The notes under the pieces were generated by a model that did not search any database, was not told the DNA's origin, and saw only the letters and a program-made list of their open reading frames with translations. 47,546 nucleotides of DNA from Gemmatimonadota bacterium (GTDB lineage Bacteria; JBHIER01; G020348925). The position numbers were made by a program, and so were the translations under genes. The DNA is taken from NCBI GenBank assembly GCA_020348925.1, contig CP070758.1:3374265-3421810 (forward strand), read 5' to 3'. The number at the start of each line of letters is the position of its first letter. Positions within the stretch are counted from its first letter, which is position 1. Positions 1 through 46,989 of this stretch are shown here, one piece after another.

Positions 1-1815
1 CCGCCAGGTATTGTTCCAACCGTAGTCGTAGTTTTGGAACACGGCGCCGATCAGCGAAACGTACCGGGTATATTTTCCGGGCTTGGTCCACTTGTAGCCG
101 CCGCCGAGATGACCGTTGATCACATCCGTGCGCCACATGAAACCCATGTCGTTCAAATCGAAATTGGGGTGAATAACTCCCAGTGAACTGTTGAAGATTA
201 CATTTCCCTTCTGCTTATTCACAAGGATACGACCTCCATAACCAGAGAGAGATGTGGCCGAACTGTCGACGCTCACGTGGGAAGCGTCCGGTCTCTGGAA
301 ATAGTGCCCCGAGCTTTCCTGCAGGGAAAGCATCCGCTCCTTGCTCCCGCGGACATGCGTCAAGCCCACCCAACTGGATATGACCCATCTTCTTTCAGAA
401 TCCAGAAATGTCCAACCGTCAAGACCAAAGGTTCTCGCACCGCTGTTGAATTCATCTCTCAGTCGGTCGTCCCGAAACATCCGTGTTGTAAAGGTAGAAA
501 TAAAGCCCAGGCCTTGTTTCCCCTCGTCTATCTCTTTCTGAGCACGGGCCACCCCATAATAGGTGAGAGGCTCCACCTCCGCCCGAAATGTGTGACCTGA
601 GATGTCGAGTTTGGCCTCTCCACGACCAGTCAAGGCGTGGAGTGTACCAATATTCCAGTTGTTGCCGATCTTTCCAGTCAGTTTGGTCGCCCCGAGAATC
701 TGGGTTCCCTCTGGAATCTGAGCCCAATCATGATCGGGAAGACTTCCCTGAGGACATCGGCCAATGCGTCTGCTGTAAAAGAAATTCGGACCACCCCAGT
801 TAAAACTCCAGTGGCTACGTGAGCCCCCGTATCCGAATTCAAAGATCGAGGAGCCTTCGATGAAGAAAGGTCGCTTCTCGCTGTAAAAGGTCTCCACATC
901 ACCCAGATTGATGACCGCCGGATCGACCTCAACCTGCCCGAAATCGGGATTCACCGTGGCATCCAGGATCAGATTATTTCCCAGACCAATCTTAAAATCG
1001 GCCCCCATGTCAGGTGGATATCTCGAGCCGTCGTTGAAGGGATCATCAGGCTCGGCAGGAACATATTCCGCTTTCAGTCGAGTGTACGGCAATATTTCCA
1101 CCTGGCGGGCGGGGTGAATATTCTCAATGCCAACCAGATCGACGAAACGGGAGACGAATCCGCTGCCGTCCTTCGGCGTATAGACGACGTAAGCATGTTC
1201 ATTTTTCCTTTCGATACATCGCCGGAAATTGATTCCCCACAAATATCTGTCCCTCTTTTGGAAACGGAGCTGAGAATAGGGGATGCGCATCTCGGCCGTC
1301 CAGCCCTTGTTGTCAATATTGACTTTCCCCTGCCACACGCCGTCCCATGAATCGTCACTCCATTCGTCGTTGTACAAAATCCCGTCGTCGCAGGTCCCAG
1401 CGGCATTCAATCCGAAATAAAAGCCGCTGCGCCGATCGTAGTAGGGATCGATATAGAACCGAAAAAAGTCGGCACTGGGCCATTGGTCACGGCGGCCCAG
1501 CCGGGCAATTATGGAGTCCGGCGCGGAATCGTACATCCTGGCCCCAACGTAGAGGGCATCATCGTCATAGGCGACCCGCACCTCTGTCCTCTCTGTCGGT
1601 TCCGAGCCTTCATCAGGATCCCGCTGGATAAAATCGCAAATTTCAGATCCGTTGTTCCAGACGGTCTCCGACAGGATGCCGTCAACGACCACCGGCTCTT
1701 CCAGGCGGATGGCATGCACTTCAACATCCTTCGCATCGTTCGCGGAAAGCATTTCAGAAAAGATCATGCTCAACACAGCGAACGTCAGAAGAAAAGAGAA
1801 TATCACGCGCTTCAT
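1..1815 (-). CDS. DUF5916 protein with N-terminal CBM9-like domain (3' end outside window)
   Basis: The minus frame is open from the ATG at 1815 to base 1, giving 605 codons with no stop; the C-terminus lies outside the window. The start follows a GGAGG six bases upstream. A signal peptide (about residues 1-25) is followed by a domain like carbohydrate-binding family 9 (about 30-215, including VVVDGILSE and DDALYVGARM). Next comes the DUF5916 hallmark near residues 290-330, with PDFGQVEVDPAVIN and EKRPFFIEG. The remainder is rich in alternating aromatic and polar strands and resembles an outer-membrane barrel. The family is common in FCB bacteria and its biochemical role is not established; an outer-membrane or periplasmic location is inferred. 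Confidence 0.88.
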   Translation of the reverse strand, partial: MKRVIFSFLLTFAVLSMIFSEMLSANDAKDVEVHAIRLEEPVVVDGILSETVWNNGSEICDFIQRDPDEGSEPTERTEVRVAYDDDALYVGARMYDSAPDSIIARLGRRDQWPSADFFRFYIDPYYDRRSGFYFGLNAAGTCDDGILYNDEWSDDSWDGVWQGKVNIDNKGWTAEMRIPYSQLRFQKRDRYLWGINFRRCIERKNEHAYVVYTPKDGSGFVSRFVDLVGIENIHPARQVEILPYTRLKAEYVPAEPDDPFNDGSRYPPDMGADFKIGLGNNLILDATVNPDFGQVEVDPAVINLGDVETFYSEKRPFFIEGSSIFEFGYGGSRSHWSFNWGGPNFFYSRRIGRCPQGSLPDHDWAQIPEGTQILGATKLTGKIGNNWNIGTLHALTGRGEAKLDISGHTFRAEVEPLTYYGVARAQKEIDEGKQGLGFISTFTTRMFRDDRLRDEFNSGARTFGLDGWTFLDSERRWVISSWVGLTHVRGSKERMLSLQESSGHYFQRPDASHVSVDSSATSLSGYGGRILVNKQKGNVIFNSSLGVIHPNFDLNDMGFMWRTDVINGHLGGGYKWTKPGKYTRYVSLIGAVFQNYDYGWNNTWR

Positions 1816-38475: not shown

Positions 38476-39009
38476 TTATTTCAAAACAGTCAGAAAAAGA
38501 AACGTGGCGCTACCCATTTTTATCTGTGTACCGTTTCGGAGGATTTGGCCTTCCTCAGATATCTCATTTCCATTGACATTCACACTTCCCTCTCGAGGGA
38601 AGATGTGAAAACACCCATTCCTGAACACAACAGCGCTGTGCTCCGGCCGCACTGTTTCGAAATCATCCACTTTGAAATCCGCCCTTTTACTGTTCCCAAG
38701 TATGGTCACAGGCCTGTTGATATGCATGAAGGCAGGGATTTTCCGTATTTTTTTCACTATCTGGGCTGCATCAACGAGGGCAAGCACACTGAAGCTTTCA
38801 AAGGGATTAAAGGGTTCGCCTTCAAGCTCAACAAAGGGTATGTCTACAGTCTCGATGGTAGCTTCTTTCTCTCCCTCAGAGCCTACCTTCGTCAATTGCA
38901 GGATTCCCGGGGATTCCACCTCTCCCTTGTGGACCCTCGTGACATTTGGGTCCTCATCACTGCCTCCCTTTTCCTCATGTACCCATTTGAGTGTGTCATC
39001 TTGTCCCAT
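38476..39009 (-). CDS. FHA-domain protein with a flexible N-terminal extension
   Basis: The ATG at 39009 has AAGGAG upstream, giving 177 residues; an ATG at 39024 lacks a ribosome site. The N-terminal 80 residues are acidic and low in predicted structure (GEVESPGILQL). About 85-177 is an FHA fold: VTILGNSKRADFKV is the start of the sheet, RPEHSAVVF holds the H of the phosphothreonine loop, and GSVNVNGNEI is the N-G turn; the usual Arg of GR is replaced by GN. It probably binds phosphothreonine, or no longer does. It starts 28 bases after the vWA-FHA gene and should be co-transcribed with it. Confidence 0.8.
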   Translation of the reverse strand: MGQDDTLKWVHEEKGGSDEDPNVTRVHKGEVESPGILQLTKVGSEGEKEATIETVDIPFVELEGEPFNPFESFSVLALVDAAQIVKKIRKIPAFMHINRPVTILGNSKRADFKVDDFETVRPEHSAVVFRNGCFHIFPREGSVNVNGNEISEEGQILRNGTQIKMGSATFLFLTVLK

Positions 39010-39036
39010 AATTTTCTCCTTCATGAATCGCCATTA

Positions 39037-40653
39037 TTATCTGCTAACCATTGTCTGTTCAAACTCTCTCTTCACTTGATCGCTTTCTCTGTAAACGATA
39101 CGTATGCCATCCTTCCCACCCAAATCTATAACGTCTCCGTCCTGCAAGGGGAACGTGCCATCTATTTTTTTCCCTCCGATCCAAGTTCCGTTCATACTTC
39201 CCAGATCCTCGATGGCAAACCTCTCCCCCTCACTCACAAATATCCTGGCATGGCCGTCTCTTTCTTGGCTTGCCCTGGAAACATATTCATTCCTCGTCCA
39301 GAGGTACACGACTCCCTTTTTGCGAAAAGAGGCTCGCTCTTTCGACTTTTTGGCAATAATCAATTCATCGAGAACCTCAACACCCTCGTGCACGAGAGGA
39401 ACCGAACTCTTCAGACAGTCTATTTGAAGTAAAACATCCGGTGCATTCCTAGCCACCTGTGTCATCTGACCGGATCGGGAATCAAAGTAATGCACAATGG
39501 TGGGATATTCCGATGGGTATTCGAGCTCACAGTCCTCGGTGTCACTGCTTTCTATCATTTCCGCAATCTGTTTCATCCAGCCTTCTTTCTCTTCCCTTTC
39601 CTTTCTTATCTTTTTTCTCGATCTCTCTATATAAATGATGATAAGCACAAGGAGCACGACTACAAGCGATCCAAGGACGATCAACTGTTGCCTCGTCAAG
39701 CTCTCATACCACGGTTTTTGAGGCGGCATAACTCTCTCCGCGACTGGCGGAGCCACCACAATCGGAGCACCGGTGGGATTAAAGAGAAATTCCTTTGTGG
39801 ACTTGGCAGTGAGGTTTCCATAAGTCAGAGAAAGGCTCGCTTTATACGTGGAAGGCTCCTTCGCAAAATCGAAACTTATCATGTACTGGTTCTTCAATTG
39901 ATCTAAGACCCCCTGATACAGCTCCGGGATTCTTTCAGGTTCCGGTGTCGTGGCAAAATCTCCTCCGCTCACTTGGGCAATCCCCTGGAGATAGGCACTG
40001 TCAATATCATGGCCGAAGCCTAAGGTGAAAACAGGAACAGAAGCACCTGTGGCCATGTCCACAGCATCCTTTGCCACGCGCTCGCTTCCTTCGTCCTTCC
40101 CGTCCGTAAGGAGAATGACGGCCGTCCTGGTAGTCGGCGCATCTTTTCCTTTTTTGAGAGCCTCATATGTGGCGTCATAGAGGTGGGTCCACTCTTCGAC
40201 AGGTCTCAAGGCCTCAACCTGAGTTCTCACGATATACCTCTCCTGAGTGAAGTCGGTCATGAACCGAACCGCTGTCCCAAAACTCATGAGAACCACAAAA
40301 TCTTTCTTTTCCAGTTGATCCAAAAAGATGGAAATGGCTTTTTGGGTTTCCTCAAAAGGCCTGCCGCGCATGCTTCCGCTAACATCCACTCCCAGAATGA
40401 TGGATAAAGGCTCCTCAACGGTGGACGCAGGTTCTAACGCAAAATCTTCAATTTTTTCTCCTCCGATAAAAAGCACAAAATTTTCTTCGGAAAGACCTTT
40501 TATCGGTCTGCCGGCATCATCGACCGCCGATATATATAACGCTGCCTTATTCTCTTCAACCGCCTCGCCCTTCAAAATAGCCACTGAAACATCGGCCGAA
40601 GCTATACAGACCGAGCACAGGAAAAATAAGAAGACAAAGCCCGCTTTTCTCAT
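39037..40653 (-). CDS. Exported vWA domain, one membrane helix, cytoplasmic FHA domain
   Basis: 538 residues; ATG after AAGGAGG. A signal peptide (1-20, IASADVS) is followed by a strand-rich segment and a vWA domain (about 83-260) with MIDAS DVSGSM (90-95), a T in EEWTHLYD and D in LLTDGKDEGS. A second small beta domain precedes a helix at about 325-347. The cytoplasmic side has a middle region, then an FHA domain near 470-530 with GHARIF, LGSMNGTW and LQDGDVIDLGG; the S-M-N-G turn is intact. This topology joins external metal-dependent protein binding to internal phosphothreonine recognition. No kinase gene is in the window. Confidence 0.87.
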   Translation of the reverse strand: MRKAGFVFLFFLCSVCIASADVSVAILKGEAVEENKAALYISAVDDAGRPIKGLSEENFVLFIGGEKIEDFALEPASTVEEPLSIILGVDVSGSMRGRPFEETQKAISIFLDQLEKKDFVVLMSFGTAVRFMTDFTQERYIVRTQVEALRPVEEWTHLYDATYEALKKGKDAPTTRTAVILLTDGKDEGSERVAKDAVDMATGASVPVFTLGFGHDIDSAYLQGIAQVSGGDFATTPEPERIPELYQGVLDQLKNQYMISFDFAKEPSTYKASLSLTYGNLTAKSTKEFLFNPTGAPIVVAPPVAERVMPPQKPWYESLTRQQLIVLGSLVVVLLVLIIIYIERSRKKIRKEREEKEGWMKQIAEMIESSDTEDCELEYPSEYPTIVHYFDSRSGQMTQVARNAPDVLLQIDCLKSSVPLVHEGVEVLDELIIAKKSKERASFRKKGVVYLWTRNEYVSRASQERDGHARIFVSEGERFAIEDLGSMNGTWIGGKKIDGTFPLQDGDVIDLGGKDGIRIVYRESDQVKREFEQTMVSR

Positions 40654-40987
40654 ATGCTACCTCCTTGGATTGCCAATGCGATCAAGACCTCCTCCGCGAG
40701 GACGAAAAAGATTTTACGATTAGAGCGACATTGAACACCAATGTTGAACGTGCTTCGGCTAATCTCACAGACTTTATATCAAAACTGTTATGTTGCGAAA
40801 TTTGTGCCAAGAGATTTGGCCTGACTCTCTTTACCTGATATATCTTTGAAGCACAATAAATTATCACAAAAAATCTTTTCCCAGAAAAAAAGTGCAGACA
40901 GAGGAAAATAGGAGAACGTGTGCAATTTACCCGTTCAGAAAGTGAGTCTTCCAGTTAAGAAACGATTGACCTGTTTGTTCATGAGCA

Positions 40988-41095
40988 GTCATTCCGGGTT
41001 TATCCCGGAATCTCCTGAATTGAGATTCCGTTGCCCTGCTTGAGGAGATTCCGTCACGGATTTTCCCCTGTATTCTATAACGGGGCCGGAATGAC
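40988..41095. repeat. MITE-like palindromic element, copy B
   Basis: The 108-base segment starts GTCATTCCGG and ends CCGGAATGAC, an exact 10-base terminal inverted repeat. Inner arms (TTATCCCGGAATCTCC and GGAGATTCCGTCACGGA-like) could fold into further hairpins. It lies in the divergent region and does not interrupt a gene. Ends agree with copy A at 4573. Confidence 0.55.
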
Positions 41096-41318
41096 ATTTC
41101 ATAAAGAAAGTACGTTAGATCCCAAAAAATACCATACTTTGTATGGAGCAAAGATTGGGTGATTTCATCCAGTCTTCCTGATATGGAATGGTACATCCTT
41201 TTATTTATGAAGGTCAATTTATATAATTTTACACCATAACCCTAATAAATACAGACAACTAAATCAATATTACTTTTAACACTTCATCTTCTGGCATGAA
41301 AATCGCACTTCGTGTAAG

Positions 41319-41345
41319 ATGTGACATTGATGTCTTGTGTCACAT
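41319..41345. promoter_or_regulatory. Inverted repeat ATGTGACA-N11-TGTCACAT before the 834-residue gene
   Basis: The two perfect 8-base arms lie at 41319-41326 and 41338-41345, 42-68 bases before the ATG at 41387. The spacer holds GATGTC, which with the left arm makes a smaller GACAT/ATGTC repeat. It may be an operator or a 5'-UTR stem. The spacing does not match a CRP site. Confidence 0.35.
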
Positions 41346-41386
41346 GACTAAGGATTTTTGTGGAATTTTAATAGGAGAACAGTACA

Positions 41387-43891
41387 ATGAGAACAGGAAT
41401 GTTGCCAGCTCTCGTCGGAATAATAATCCTCATATGCGGTGGTTTTCTGACAGGGATCTCGGCTGATGAGCTGATGAGCCAGGGGAGTCAGTTGACTGTT
41501 CCCTGGGATGAGTTTAAAAAATTGGTGAATCTCGATGAAGACGAGATCGTGCTTTCTTTGGAGACGTACCAAAAACTGGTGGCACAGACCGGCGTAAAAA
41601 CAACACCACCTCACACAGTGAGGCAGGGGAATGTGGTTCTGACCCGCGCCGAATTCAAAAAGTTGATTGACGGGATGAGGCTTCCTGCCGATCCTCAGAC
41701 GCAACCCCCCTTTGATTATCTCATAACCAAGGCGATATACTCCGGAAAAATGGCGGAGGACAATACGGCCTTCGTCGGGATATTCACCGTCCACGTCCTG
41801 AAACAGGGCGCCTATTTAAGAATACCGCTTCTTCCGCAGAGTATCGCTCTGGAAGACATACGAATGGACGGCAAAGAGGCGCTGGTGATCAGCGAGAACG
41901 GATATCACCACGTGATCCTGTCGCGTGCCGGTGAATACGAAGTGACGGCTTCATTCTCCCTGAAAACCTCACTGGACAAAGGTCCCCACAAGATCGATCT
42001 GGCCATTCAGCAGACGCCCATTACGCTTCTGAAACTGGAGCTGCCCTTGAAGGATATTGATGTGGAGATCCCTCAGGCTCAACAAGTCGCAAGCAGCACA
42101 AGGGGCAATACCACGACTGTTTCCGCAGTCATCACGCCGGGCCGGACTGTAAGTATCCGCTGGCGAAAGAAGGTGGCCATCACCGAGAAGATCCCGCCCA
42201 AACTCTACAGTGAGGTCTATCATCTCATCTCCATCGATGACGATGCGCTCAAGATCAATTCGGATATCAATTACACCATCCTTCACAGCGAGGTCGACGC
42301 TGTCCAGCTGGCCATCCCGGACAATACCAATGTGCTCACCGTAACGGGCGAAGGCGTGGGCGAGTGGCAGGAGACCGAACAGGAGGGGCAACGCCTGATC
42401 CTGATCCCGTTCACGTATGGGAAGAAGGGATCCGTGACGGTGCGAGTCACTTCTGAGATTCCACTGTCAGCGACCGGGTTGGCGAACGTCTTTTCCGGGA
42501 TACGGGCGCTGGAAACGGTTCGTGAAACTGGATTCATCGGCATCGAGCTCAATACCAGCGCCGAGGTGCTCGTGACGGAGAGCGTGGGATTGGAGCCGAT
42601 TGCGACGCCGAAACTTCCAGCCCAGCTGATCAATAAGTCCGCCAAACCCCTCATTATGGGATTCAAATATCTCAAGCATCCGTTCAGTCTGGTGCTTGAT
42701 ATCAAGAAGCACGAAAAAATCGCCGTACCGGTGGCCACCATCAACTCCGCCAACATTGTCACCCTCTTTACCGAGGACGGAAAGGTGGTCCATCGTTTGG
42801 TGTATCAGGTACGAAACAGCGCCAAGCAGTTTCTGGAGATCCAGGTTCCTGAAAAAGCGGACGTCTGGAGCGTCTTCGTCGGTAACGAGCCTGTCGAGTC
42901 GTCCCTCAATTCTCACGGGAAGCTGTTAGTGCCCCTTATCCGCTCCCGCTCGGTGAACAACCGTCTGGACACCTTCCCCGTCGAGGTCATCTACTGTCTG
43001 GTGGAGGACAGATTTACCTGGTCGGGCTCCCGGGCATCGGCGCTCCCGGCCGTAGATCTGTTGATCAGTCAGCTCATGTGGTCCGTGTATCTGCCCAACG
43101 ACTATTCGTACATCTATTTCAGGAGTACCCTGGAGAAGGAGGAGATCATCCGCGGATTAAACGTTTTTAAAGGCGCACAGAGGCAGTACAACGAGAGAGC
43201 CATGAAGGAGCTTTCCGACTTGGACGCTGTGGAATCAGACGAAATGTACTGGGACAAGCTCAGGGGAGCGTACAAGGGAAAGGAGTACAAGAGCCGGTTC
43301 AGAAATGTTCCGCTCCAGGAGGAGCAGCTCTCCAGCCAGGTTCAGACCGAGCTCGAATTCAGCGGACGCCTCGAGGGCCTCGCCCAGCAGGAGCCCCAGG
43401 CGGCCGTCTCCGGAGGTGTAGGCATACTGCCCATACAGATACAGATCCCAACCGGTGGACAGGTCTACAGGTTTGCCAAAACCATCGTCAAGACCGAAGA
43501 TCCCCTCACCATGAGTGTCGTCTACGCACAAAACTGGATCTTAGGGACGATCAAGTGGGTCGTAATTGTGCTCATTGTCTTGATACTCATTATAATGAGA
43601 AAAACAGTCATCAGGATCTTTCGGTGGTTCAAAGACGGGTTCAGTAACGTGGAGAAATGGTATAAAAAGCATGACAGTACCTTTGAAAAAATATCCAAAT
43701 CCAAAATGACGCCCTTCGTCCTGTTCGGACTCTTCATCGTATTCTGGTCCATTTCAAAGTTGCTCACACTCCTCGTCTTCTTCCTTTTCTGGATGAGTGT
43801 CGTGTATCACATCATTCTCTACAGGGAGAGAAGGGCTGAGAGGAGATCAAAGATTGAAGAGCAGGATCAAGATCAATCGACTACACTTTAG
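41387..43891 (+). CDS. Large exported, membrane-anchored protein of unknown function
   Basis: 834 residues; ATG nine bases after AGGAG. A signal peptide (1-26) leads into a short segment, LTVPWDEFKKLV, that is echoed by VLTRAEFKKLI (about residue 85), suggesting a small repeat. About 110-640 is rich in beta strands in sandwich-like sets (VHVLKQGAYLRIPLLP). About 650-700 is charged and Gln-rich. One membrane helix lies at about 720-738 and a helical hairpin at 775-812, followed by a basic, then acidic tail. No catalytic motif was recognised. It is divergent from the vWA-FHA pair, and I infer, without proof, that they act together in the envelope. Confidence 0.78.
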   Translation: MRTGMLPALVGIIILICGGFLTGISADELMSQGSQLTVPWDEFKKLVNLDEDEIVLSLETYQKLVAQTGVKTTPPHTVRQGNVVLTRAEFKKLIDGMRLPADPQTQPPFDYLITKAIYSGKMAEDNTAFVGIFTVHVLKQGAYLRIPLLPQSIALEDIRMDGKEALVISENGYHHVILSRAGEYEVTASFSLKTSLDKGPHKIDLAIQQTPITLLKLELPLKDIDVEIPQAQQVASSTRGNTTTVSAVITPGRTVSIRWRKKVAITEKIPPKLYSEVYHLISIDDDALKINSDINYTILHSEVDAVQLAIPDNTNVLTVTGEGVGEWQETEQEGQRLILIPFTYGKKGSVTVRVTSEIPLSATGLANVFSGIRALETVRETGFIGIELNTSAEVLVTESVGLEPIATPKLPAQLINKSAKPLIMGFKYLKHPFSLVLDIKKHEKIAVPVATINSANIVTLFTEDGKVVHRLVYQVRNSAKQFLEIQVPEKADVWSVFVGNEPVESSLNSHGKLLVPLIRSRSVNNRLDTFPVEVIYCLVEDRFTWSGSRASALPAVDLLISQLMWSVYLPNDYSYIYFRSTLEKEEIIRGLNVFKGAQRQYNERAMKELSDLDAVESDEMYWDKLRGAYKGKEYKSRFRNVPLQEEQLSSQVQTELEFSGRLEGLAQQEPQAAVSGGVGILPIQIQIPTGGQVYRFAKTIVKTEDPLTMSVVYAQNWILGTIKWVVIVLIVLILIIMRKTVIRIFRWFKDGFSNVEKWYKKHDSTFEKISKSKMTPFVLFGLFIVFWSISKLLTLLVFFLFWMSVVYHIILYRERRAERRSKIEEQDQDQSTTL

Positions 43892-44450: not shown

Positions 44451-44484
44451 CTCCCAGCATTGAACTTGGGAGCATTTATTTTTT
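44451..44484 (+). terminator. Terminator between convergent genes
   Basis: CTCCCA (44451-44456) pairs with TGGGAG (44467-44472), followed by a T-rich CATTTATTTTTTAT. It would end plus-strand transcripts coming from the 834-residue gene. It overlaps the last codons of the convergent fibre gene. Confidence 0.5.
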
Positions 44485-46989
44485 ATAACTCAGACGATAC
44501 GACTCGGGCTTGCCAAAACACTCCGGATGGAGATAGGTGCCTCTCTGCTCCGGGGACTTGTCCTCTTCAACCTGAATACGATTGGCCTCTGCATAAGCGT
44601 CCTGGCGAATACCTGTCACCTGCCATGACACCTCCAATCCAGAATGACCGCCTGCGATCTGAAACCGGTTGCTTTGGATTTTCTCGGCAACATACACAGG
44701 TGCATATCCGCCGATGCAGGTCAACTGATAGCGGAAATCCTTGTTCAAGGCACCAAACCAATCGGGCAGCTCCACCCAGGCTTCACCGGACTCATCCAGA
44801 GCTACATTGCCGTTGTAAATATTCATCATGTCCGGGCTTTCCACAAAGGAGTGGTAAAGGAATTTATTCTCCGGGTCCAAAGGATGGTCGATTTTGAATG
44901 AACCGGCAGGCTTACTGAGAATACCCTGAACTTGGAGAACGTCAGACACAAAACAGTTCTTGACAGTCAAAAATTCTTTGATTAAGGCATTCCCATCGGG
45001 ATCGGCATGAAAGTAATAGTCCCCACCATTACGCTCACGAATAGCGATCCCAACTTCAGGATTGATGTCAATATATTTTCCCAATCCAATGGGAATTTCT
45101 ATACCGGCTTCATAGGTTTCAAGCCCTTTGTGTTTTGAGGTGCCATCGGAATAAAAACTTGTAACAGTATCACCCTCGTCACTGACGACATGCAGATCGC
45201 CGTTCACTTCCACATCACCATCAAAAACTCCGGCGGCATCGTTCTCGGTTTCAGCTTTACCGTAGACTGCCAGTATTTTGTCAGTACCCAGATCTTTTCT
45301 GCCAAATCCGGCAATGGTTTCCTCGCTGTCGTTGACCAGTTTTATGCCCTTACCATCTTGCCCCCTTAATATGACATCCTCATAAAAGCTTTCGGGTTTG
45401 TAGTGAAAAGACGAATCCTGATTGAATATATGAGCAGGTCCACCTGCCGAATCAAAAACAGAAATACCTTCCTCGTTAATGATAGTACCTGTTTTTCCCG
45501 CCTCGTCTGTAATGAAGAGCCAACCATCGATTTTCAAACGTTCTTTAATGAGATTGTATTCTTCAGGATGATTGAAATAAGCTAAGATTTCTCCCTGCGC
45601 ATTTTCAATAACAACCAAGTGGTCTGTGGAAATAATACCACTTTCTTCATCATATTCCCAGCCGCACTCATGACCCTCTGCGGTATCGGAGGGCAAGGTT
45701 CTGCATTTTACAAATTTATCACCTGACCAGACGAGGAATTGTTCAGACTGCGGATCTTCCGGTACGTTATCTATTTTAAGTTTACCAGTTTCCTCTATGA
45801 GTACATCACCTTCAAACTCAGCCGCTACATCCAATCCATAAGCGTAAAGTCCTGTGCCAAAATCCGAAGATGCATACACGCCCACGCCATCTATTGATTC
45901 CCCCCTGACACCAACACCATTCTCTGAATCTGAAACGCCTAAAACGCCAACGTCATCGGTTGATTCCCCCTGTACACCAACACTTTTCGTTGACTTGCCA
46001 AGAACGCCAACGTCATCGGTTGATAAACCATAAACAGCGGTACCATAGGGTGAAGAGCCAAAAACGGCTGTGGATTCGTCTGATTCTCCATAAACACCGG
46101 TACCAGTCTCTGATTTGCCATAAACGCCTATGGATTCGCTTGAATGCCCCCATCCCATTACACCTACCCCTTCCCTTGAGTCACCAAAAACGCCCATGCC
46201 ATCTTCCGATTCCCCCTGTACACCATTATTAGTCCTTGATTTACCAAAAACGCCCCCGCCACTTATTGATTCCCCCCTAACACCTATATTTATCGATGAA
46301 ACACCCCAAACGCCCGCGTCATCGCCTGAACTCCCAAATACACCGACATTAGTCGATGAAAAGCCAGCAACAGCTACTCCGACTGCGGAGTAACCGTAGA
46401 TCGCCCTGTCTTCATTTGAAGTAAGCTCATGAAGTGCGTCAATACTATTACTTTTCATGGATTGTGTTCCACTCGTATCACCAAGAATGACTTCCAGGCC
46501 TCCTTCGAAGTATCCTTTGCCCTTATGAGTCACATCCCCATTCTGACTCAGAATGTGTGTCTGCTCGCCCAGGCTATCACGAATTGCAAAACTCTGGCCA
46601 GCCTCCGGCTCAACAATGGTCGATAATGCATTTAAACTGTAAGGAGAAGAAGTCAGAGCGTAACGGGGTGTGAGTTCCTCTTCTCCTTCAACTTCTATGC
46701 CCAGCCAGTAGGGCTTGTCAAAGGGCAGGTTCAAGGGTTTTCCTCTGCCCAGAATCACATGAAACAGACCGTCCGTTATCTCGACCTCCCGGATTTCTTC
46801 CCAGAGTGCTGTGCCTTCCTCCTCCACATCGTACAGCCTGAAAGCTATGATGACTGTACCGTCGGCCACAGGATTGCCGGCATCATCTTTGAGCATCCCC
46901 TGATAACTCATGGTCTGAGGAATCTGTGCCCAAGCGAATCCAGCCAGGAGAATACAAATTATACCGGTACATAGGATTCGACGTAACAT
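44476..46989 (-). CDS. Exported repeat-fibre surface protein with conserved C-terminal domain
   Basis: 837 residues; ATG five bases after AAGGAGGG. A signal peptide ends near residue 22 (GFAWAQ). Residues 23-125 form the N-terminal domain typical of FCB surface proteins (QTMSYQGMLKDDAGNPVADG). About 195-388 is a run of 10-residue repeats of the type G-V-x-G-x-S-x-x-x, predicted to stack as a beta-solenoid or trimeric fibre. About 390-690 has further strand-rich phage-fibre-like modules. About 695-837 is a conserved C-terminal domain (SFKIDHPLDPENK, SPDMMNIYNGNV, WQVTGIRQDAYAEANR, YLHPE) that I recall ending many bacterial surface proteins. It may act in folding or anchoring. Adhesion or a cell-surface coat is inferred. 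Confidence 0.85.
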   Translation of the reverse strand: MLRRILCTGIICILLAGFAWAQIPQTMSYQGMLKDDAGNPVADGTVIIAFRLYDVEEEGTALWEEIREVEITDGLFHVILGRGKPLNLPFDKPYWLGIEVEGEEELTPRYALTSSPYSLNALSTIVEPEAGQSFAIRDSLGEQTHILSQNGDVTHKGKGYFEGGLEVILGDTSGTQSMKSNSIDALHELTSNEDRAIYGYSAVGVAVAGFSSTNVGVFGSSGDDAGVWGVSSINIGVRGESISGGGVFGKSRTNNGVQGESEDGMGVFGDSREGVGVMGWGHSSESIGVYGKSETGTGVYGESDESTAVFGSSPYGTAVYGLSTDDVGVLGKSTKSVGVQGESTDDVGVLGVSDSENGVGVRGESIDGVGVYASSDFGTGLYAYGLDVAAEFEGDVLIEETGKLKIDNVPEDPQSEQFLVWSGDKFVKCRTLPSDTAEGHECGWEYDEESGIISTDHLVVIENAQGEILAYFNHPEEYNLIKERLKIDGWLFITDEAGKTGTIINEEGISVFDSAGGPAHIFNQDSSFHYKPESFYEDVILRGQDGKGIKLVNDSEETIAGFGRKDLGTDKILAVYGKAETENDAAGVFDGDVEVNGDLHVVSDEGDTVTSFYSDGTSKHKGLETYEAGIEIPIGLGKYIDINPEVGIAIRERNGGDYYFHADPDGNALIKEFLTVKNCFVSDVLQVQGILSKPAGSFKIDHPLDPENKFLYHSFVESPDMMNIYNGNVALDESGEAWVELPDWFGALNKDFRYQLTCIGGYAPVYVAEKIQSNRFQIAGGHSGLEVSWQVTGIRQDAYAEANRIQVEEDKSPEQRGTYLHPECFGKPESYRLSYKK
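45826..46407 (-). repeat. Tandem repeat coding for about nineteen 10-residue G-V-x-G-x-S units
   Basis: The repeat unit is 30 bases. The register is exact from residue 195 to about 278. A two-residue insertion at WGHSSES shifts it, and another at SDSENG shifts it again. Unit positions 1-3 alternate between G-V-F/Y/L and G-V-R/Q/W forms, so the array has a higher-order 20-residue period (VFG-S then VRGES). Such repeats can expand or shrink by slippage. Confidence 0.75.

Follow-up and report, generated by a model that had tools for sequence, protein, structure and literature searches.

The locus described here is best read, with a probability of about 0.6, as two independent units: a compact variant of the vWA/FHA signalling modules, and a membrane-anchored protein whose ectodomain is predicted to be built from beta-sandwiches of the M1 aminopeptidase N-terminal type. 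It lies in a window of 47,546 nt, by which we mean the whole stretch of DNA that was analysed, taken from a genome of 5.04 Mb. A first-pass annotation had placed three genes there, and the open reading frame coordinates bear this out (Table 1); the genes are genuine and conserved, so that chance need not be considered. The P0001 gene follows the stop of P0002 after a gap of 12 bp, and this pair is divergent from the P0003 gene, with 733 bp between them. Two transcription units (38476-40653 on the - strand and 41387-43891 on the + strand) would thus meet at a divergent region that contains a repeat. Beyond the P0003 gene, the window also carries an exported, repeat-rich protein of 837 aa (44476-46989, - strand), which has a sub-threshold match (33 of 60 bits) to the N-terminal domain of the Bdellovibrio mosaic adhesive trimer.

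Table 1. Features of the locus, in nucleotide positions of the window or, for D1 to D3, in residues of P0003
Feature	Position	Strand	Basis or description
P0001, FHA protein, 182 aa	38476-39024	-	open reading frame and Pfam FHA match
P0002, vWA-TM-FHA protein, 538 aa	39037-40653	-	Pfam VWA_3/VWA and FHA, hydropathy
Dispersed palindromic repeat	40975-41110	.	49 genome matches and inverted repeats
P0003, membrane-anchored envelope protein, 834 aa	41387-43891	+	open reading frame, hydropathy, AlphaFold model
P0003 D1	~107-262		predicted beta-sandwich, M1-N-terminal-domain-like
P0003 D2	~270-445		predicted; D2-D3 matched to Ost1
P0003 D3	~447-714		predicted beta-sandwich, M1-N-terminal-domain-like

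The vWA-TM-FHA protein and its FHA partner

P0002 begins with a signal peptide (residues 1 to ~20, from hydropathy), followed by an extracytoplasmic vWA domain (~80-250) whose MIDAS is formed by D90xSxS, T156 and D184, with the motif letters DVSGS at residue 90 and TDG at residue 183. A single TM helix (318-347, from hydropathy) and a run of basic residues then lead to a cytoplasmic linker and to a degenerate C-terminal FHA domain (~430-520). Against the NCBIfam model of acidobacterial VWFA proteins (TIGR03436), P0002 scores 80.7 bits, borderline under the curated cut-off of 81.25. P0001 is devoid of any hydrophobic segment in the hydropathy profile, which makes it cytoplasmic, and its FHA domain (~100-177) scores 23.3 bits in Pfam for a cut-off of 20.7.

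The recurrence of this arrangement was followed by searching P0002 in 386 genomes and taking the regions of all matches with E<=1e-12, plus locus L127. This gives 39 other vWA loci, that is, 38 regions covering 39 matches outside our own locus (two of them in one region) and L127. The kinase, FHA, PP2C and vWA profiles used to read these loci were built from loci of this analysis, so the counts below should be read knowing that L123-L125, L127 and L129 served among the seeds of the FHA and vWA profiles and are counted as well, and that the vWA profile is silent in 3 of the 39. The vWA and FHA domains share one reading frame in seven of the 39 loci, and a separate FHA gene is also present in six of those seven. 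The coupling of a second FHA protein to P0002, as proposed in the first-pass annotation, is therefore a recurrent feature. Kinases were detected in 7/39 loci and PP2C genes in 4/39, in regions that often end at contig ends and with reading frames chosen by length, without a gene caller. Among the six fused loci with a separate FHA gene, three (L124, L180 and L186) show no kinase in the region retrieved. More complete clusters occur at L123 and L125, which encode an FHA protein, a vWA-TM-FHA protein, a PP2C and two kinases, and in L127 the kinase, TM-FHA, vWA-TM and PP2C are all separate genes.

Around our own locus, no kinase and no PP2C phosphatase gene was found in a region of 19.7 kb. The absence of a nearby kinase had been pointed out before, and it extends to the entire window; elsewhere in the genome, 27 Pkinase matches exceed the cut-off. 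Given the separate FHA gene in six of seven loci and the lack of a kinase in half of those six, both the pairing and the absence of a kinase are ordinary for this architecture. The P0002/P0001 pair is a slimmed-down variant of the known envelope signalling modules that combine vWA, FHA, PP2C and Ser/Thr kinase functions. In the parts of the literature on vWA-FHA modules that our searches covered, we found no description of a vWA-TM-FHA/FHA pair.

The closest known system is that of PpkA, Fha1 and PppA in type VI secretion, where, in the portion of the source consulted, the extracellular vWA of PpkA is proposed as a sensor (PMC3224232). In both cases a TM helix connects an extracytoplasmic vWA with phospho-signalling in the cytoplasm, in which an FHA protein is a partner (PMC3224232). 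The vWA of P0002 differs in being fused to an FHA domain and not to a kinase. The locus also differs in having neither kinase nor PP2C nearby, and in the loss of the FHA contact residues, to which we now turn.

The phosphothreonine contacts of FHA domains are made by a conserved Arg (in GR), a conserved Ser (in SxxH) and a conserved Asn (in NG). In our alignment, 10/10 reference FHA domains from vWA/FHA loci carry the SxxH Ser. P0001 has lost all three contact residues, with GN in place of GR, RPEH in place of SxxH, and the Asn gone. In P0002, RDGH replaces SxxH and the first half of the domain, including GR, is unrecognisable, while NG and the His are kept. The earlier description of P0002 as an external MIDAS-bearing domain joined to an internal phosphothreonine reader thus holds for the external vWA and for the internal FHA fold, and fails, by the binding residues, for the reader. 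Degenerate FHA domains are found elsewhere too, for instance as the first FHA domain of the L180 and L186 proteins, where a canonical second one then follows.

This loss of contact residues in both FHA domains suggests that they probably bind their partners independently of phosphate, and that the pair could act as an assembly platform. A precedent comes from the FHA domains of EssC in the T7SSb, which, in the part of the source available to us, are described as lacking a phosphothreonine site (PMC11217815). These domains are likewise phosphate-independent interaction modules, as we propose for P0001 and P0002 (PMC11217815). The resemblance stops there, as no WXG100 or FtsK-type partner could be recognised in the neighbourhood of P0001/P0002, and the FHA domain of P0002, unlike those of EssC, is fused to an extracytoplasmic vWA.

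It can be argued that the pair still belongs to a phosphothreonine circuit served by a kinase encoded elsewhere in the genome. The 27 Pkinase matches would offer ample candidates, P0002 does keep NG in the FHA loop as well as the SxxH His, and a kinase and a PP2C adjoin the homologous pairs of L123 and L125. The loss of GR, Ser and Asn in P0001, together with that of the Ser in P0002, makes this somewhat unlikely, and a third FHA domain of the genome speaks in the same direction. There are four FHA matches in total: the two of the locus, a partial one with stops, and one beside a kinase at 2.407 Mb, which has kept both GR and SREH. Apart from the two of the locus, the gene of the latter (2407195-2408366), which immediately precedes that of a large Ser/Thr kinase, is the only FHA gene in the genome with good support.

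The P0003 family and its predicted fold

P0003 carries a signal peptide and two C-terminal membrane segments (714-748 and 774-813, from hydropathy), the second being a hydrophobic hairpin. It had been announced as a large beta-rich envelope protein with membrane anchors, and both the hydropathy and the AlphaFold model agree with this, with no Pfam family to which it could be assigned. Relatives with 50-68% identity occur at 15 loci, in MAGs labelled Latescibacterota, KSB1, Zixibacteria, Delongbacteria, UBP11 and Deltaproteobacteria, and a 19-row profile finds the family in 28 of 386 genomes. It is often present as two tandem copies, or as one reading frame with two (1,773 aa in L162); fused or diverged reading frames of 1,130-2,696 aa are found in L162, L171 and L174-L177. 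The family has no match beyond noise in Pfam, NCBIfam or PDB sequences, the latter giving weak hits alone, such as DUF3244 and auracyanin A. It has no consistent neighbour either, as the largest non-family cluster is found in 5 of 33 loci, and in 3 of 18 in another comparison. Within the Pfam, NCBIfam and literature searches, the family is undescribed. Close to the N-terminus of P0003 (residues ~35-97), three short strand-helix repeats (PWDEFKKLV, SLETYQKLV and TRAEFKKLI) could be spotted by eye, and PWDEFKKLV also occurs in close relatives.

The AlphaFold model of P0003 (pLDDT 70.6, pTM 0.34) has a beta-rich ectodomain, and that of a distant member of the family (from L165, ~26% identical, with a different alignment) reaches a pLDDT of 77.7 and a pTM of 0.41. 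In Foldseek, the top hits of both models are Ost1/RPN1 proteins (E 9.2e-10 for P0003 and 1.6e-9 for the L165 member). With VIA-align, residues 270-720 of P0003 superpose on residues 28-446 of Ost1 with a Z of 16.5 over 304 aligned residues, and the L165 model on Ost1 with a Z of 14.5 over 313. D1 in both models, and D3 in P0003, match the N-terminal domains of M1 aminopeptidases over ~150 residues with Z ~13 at ~3 A, when, according to the VIA-align tool, models that lack a clear match typically reach a Z of 7-8. In the best Ost1 superpositions the overall rmsd is 17-21 A, and as much as 30 A with the human chain, in models whose pTM is low, so that the match covers the order and the fold of the domains and not their relative orientation. 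As regards the cytosolic helical domain by which ribophorin I binds ribosomes, the C-terminal helices of the models have low to middling confidence; the human ribophorin chain aligns through residue 535. A profile-profile comparison of D1 and D3 (E 0.0015, probability 17) is unconvincing by itself as a sign of an internal repeat.

P0003 thus shares a predicted fold with two kinds of known proteins. D1 and D3 resemble the N-terminal domain of M1 aminopeptidases such as PepN and LTA4H; unlike these enzymes, P0003 has its domains in a tandem string and has no M1 catalytic domain. The possibility that it is itself an M1 protease was discarded, as Pfam gives no match to the zinc catalytic domain. 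As for Ost1/ribophorin I, it likewise presents beta-sandwiches in tandem in its ectodomain and then a TM helix, an arrangement that P0003 shows in predicted models. In the portion of the source consulted, Ost1 is described as having two similar lumenal beta-sheet domains and as binding only glycosylated peptides (PMC7226087), and, according to the available part of a 2024 paper, OST1 occurs solely in eukaryotes and in the TACK and Asgard archaea (PMC11417166). P0003 differs in being bacterial, in its extra N-terminal sandwich D1, in its C-terminal membrane hairpin, and in belonging to a family that is often tandem.

P0003 could not be retained as a member of PF04597, which matched neither the aligned members of the family nor 8 further ones, and which was over the cut-off in 0/386 genomes. 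A place in an oligosaccharyltransferase was also rejected, as the genome has no STT3 (no PF02516 match at E<=1e-5). Across genomes, carriers of STT3 (PF02516) and of the P0003 family overlap as chance would have it (2 for 2.5 expected). With the PF04597 profile unmatched and STT3 absent, what we propose P0003 and Ost1 to have in common is a predicted fold. In the sections of the literature covered by our searches, Ost1 structure papers included, no bacterial relative of ribophorin I is described. We consider a genuine kinship of the bacterial P0003 family with Ost1/ribophorin I quite unlikely; the family would then be a prokaryotic lineage of membrane-anchored proteins with M1-N-terminal-like double sandwiches, which handle translocated polypeptides, and this lineage may predate, or parallel, the recruitment of such proteins into the oligosaccharyltransferase.

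P0003 might also be an adhesin or stalk of a generic multi-sandwich kind; the match to Ost1 would then arise from nothing more than two common beta-sandwiches placed beside a TM helix. Integrin ectodomains and PIG-T do appear among the Foldseek hits, and the sequences of the family give no PF04597 match. We nonetheless find this explanation rather doubtful, since single domains match the M1 N-terminal domains far above the typical Z, and since Ost1 is the top hit for the models of two distant members of the family. Within the two-unit reading that we favour, P0003 would be anchored in the inner membrane and expose a string of M1-aminopeptidase N-terminal-type sandwiches without a protease domain. 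Judging from the models, a role as a periplasmic scaffold or polypeptide-holding chaperone is the most likely one, fulfilled in many lineages by two tandem or fused copies.

The junction between the two proposed units

The first-pass annotation suggested that the three genes could be one envelope system, and it had set out beforehand that the absence of the three-gene neighbourhood from related genomes would count against this. The neighbourhood is absent from every other locus examined, in a sample that includes no second genome of the phylum. This is true from both sides. No sensor gene, that is, no P0001- or P0002-like gene, was found by tblastn (E up to 1) beside the P0003 relatives of 18 other loci, which are 17 distinct ones as L017 and L029 share a contig, and many of whose flanks end at contig ends (both full 10-kb flanks are present at 6 of 15 P0003-relative loci). 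An all-against-all blastp gave the same result for 32 other loci, two of which (L030 and L173) lie on the same contig and one of which (L167) has no chosen family reading frame. Conversely, P0003 relatives were found beside 0/39 vWA loci, and 17 other genomes with the P0003 family (of which G080 and G106 look like one and the same assembly) have no P0002 match that spans both vWA and FHA.

The divergent region itself points to the same separation. The repeat that it contains is MITE- or REP-like; its genome matches, counted at E<=0.001, include some that are the two arms of one copy. The presence of such a dispersed repeat between the units fits a chance junction. Rfam gave no match in the window, and a scan for promoters and terminators was uninformative, with 11 promoter-like sites for 6.6 expected.

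A single system, in which the vWA would bind the P0003 ectodomain and the FHA proteins would report the state of P0003 inside the cell, was rejected on the grounds of this lack of adjacency elsewhere, and we hold it to be highly improbable. It draws on the adjacency and divergence of the genes here, on compatible topologies, and on a weak association of the families between genomes: among the 385 other genomes, a P0002-like vWA is present in 6/27 carriers of the P0003 family and in 25/358 non-carriers (6 for 2.2 expected, Fisher p 0.015, with relatedness and genome size ignored). These six genomes include none of the seven that have a fused vWA-FHA protein. Against it stand the tblastn and blastp results, the vWA loci devoid of P0003 relatives, and the 733 bp that separate the units and carry a dispersed repeat. 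The three genes may be linked in a lineage-specific manner, in a comparison set that includes no close relative of this genome.

Proposed signalling and scaffolding at the envelope

In the two-unit reading, the vWA domain of P0002 would bind a ligand or a partner outside the cell through its MIDAS, and the single TM helix would couple this domain to the cytoplasm, presumably carrying the signal inwards or outwards. There, the FHA-type domain of P0002 and P0001 would form the platform, through contacts that would not involve phosphate. The locus is thus split into two parts that can be tested separately, a sensor pair and an orphan family. In the pair, an extracellular vWA would be linked to FHA modules that may no longer read phosphothreonine. 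P0003, for its part, represents a Pfam-less family with an Ost1-like predicted ectodomain, spread across several poorly studied phyla. If the kinship with Ost1 were true, it would mean that an accessory subunit of the eukaryotic oligosaccharyltransferase has bacterial relatives that work without any oligosaccharyltransferase.
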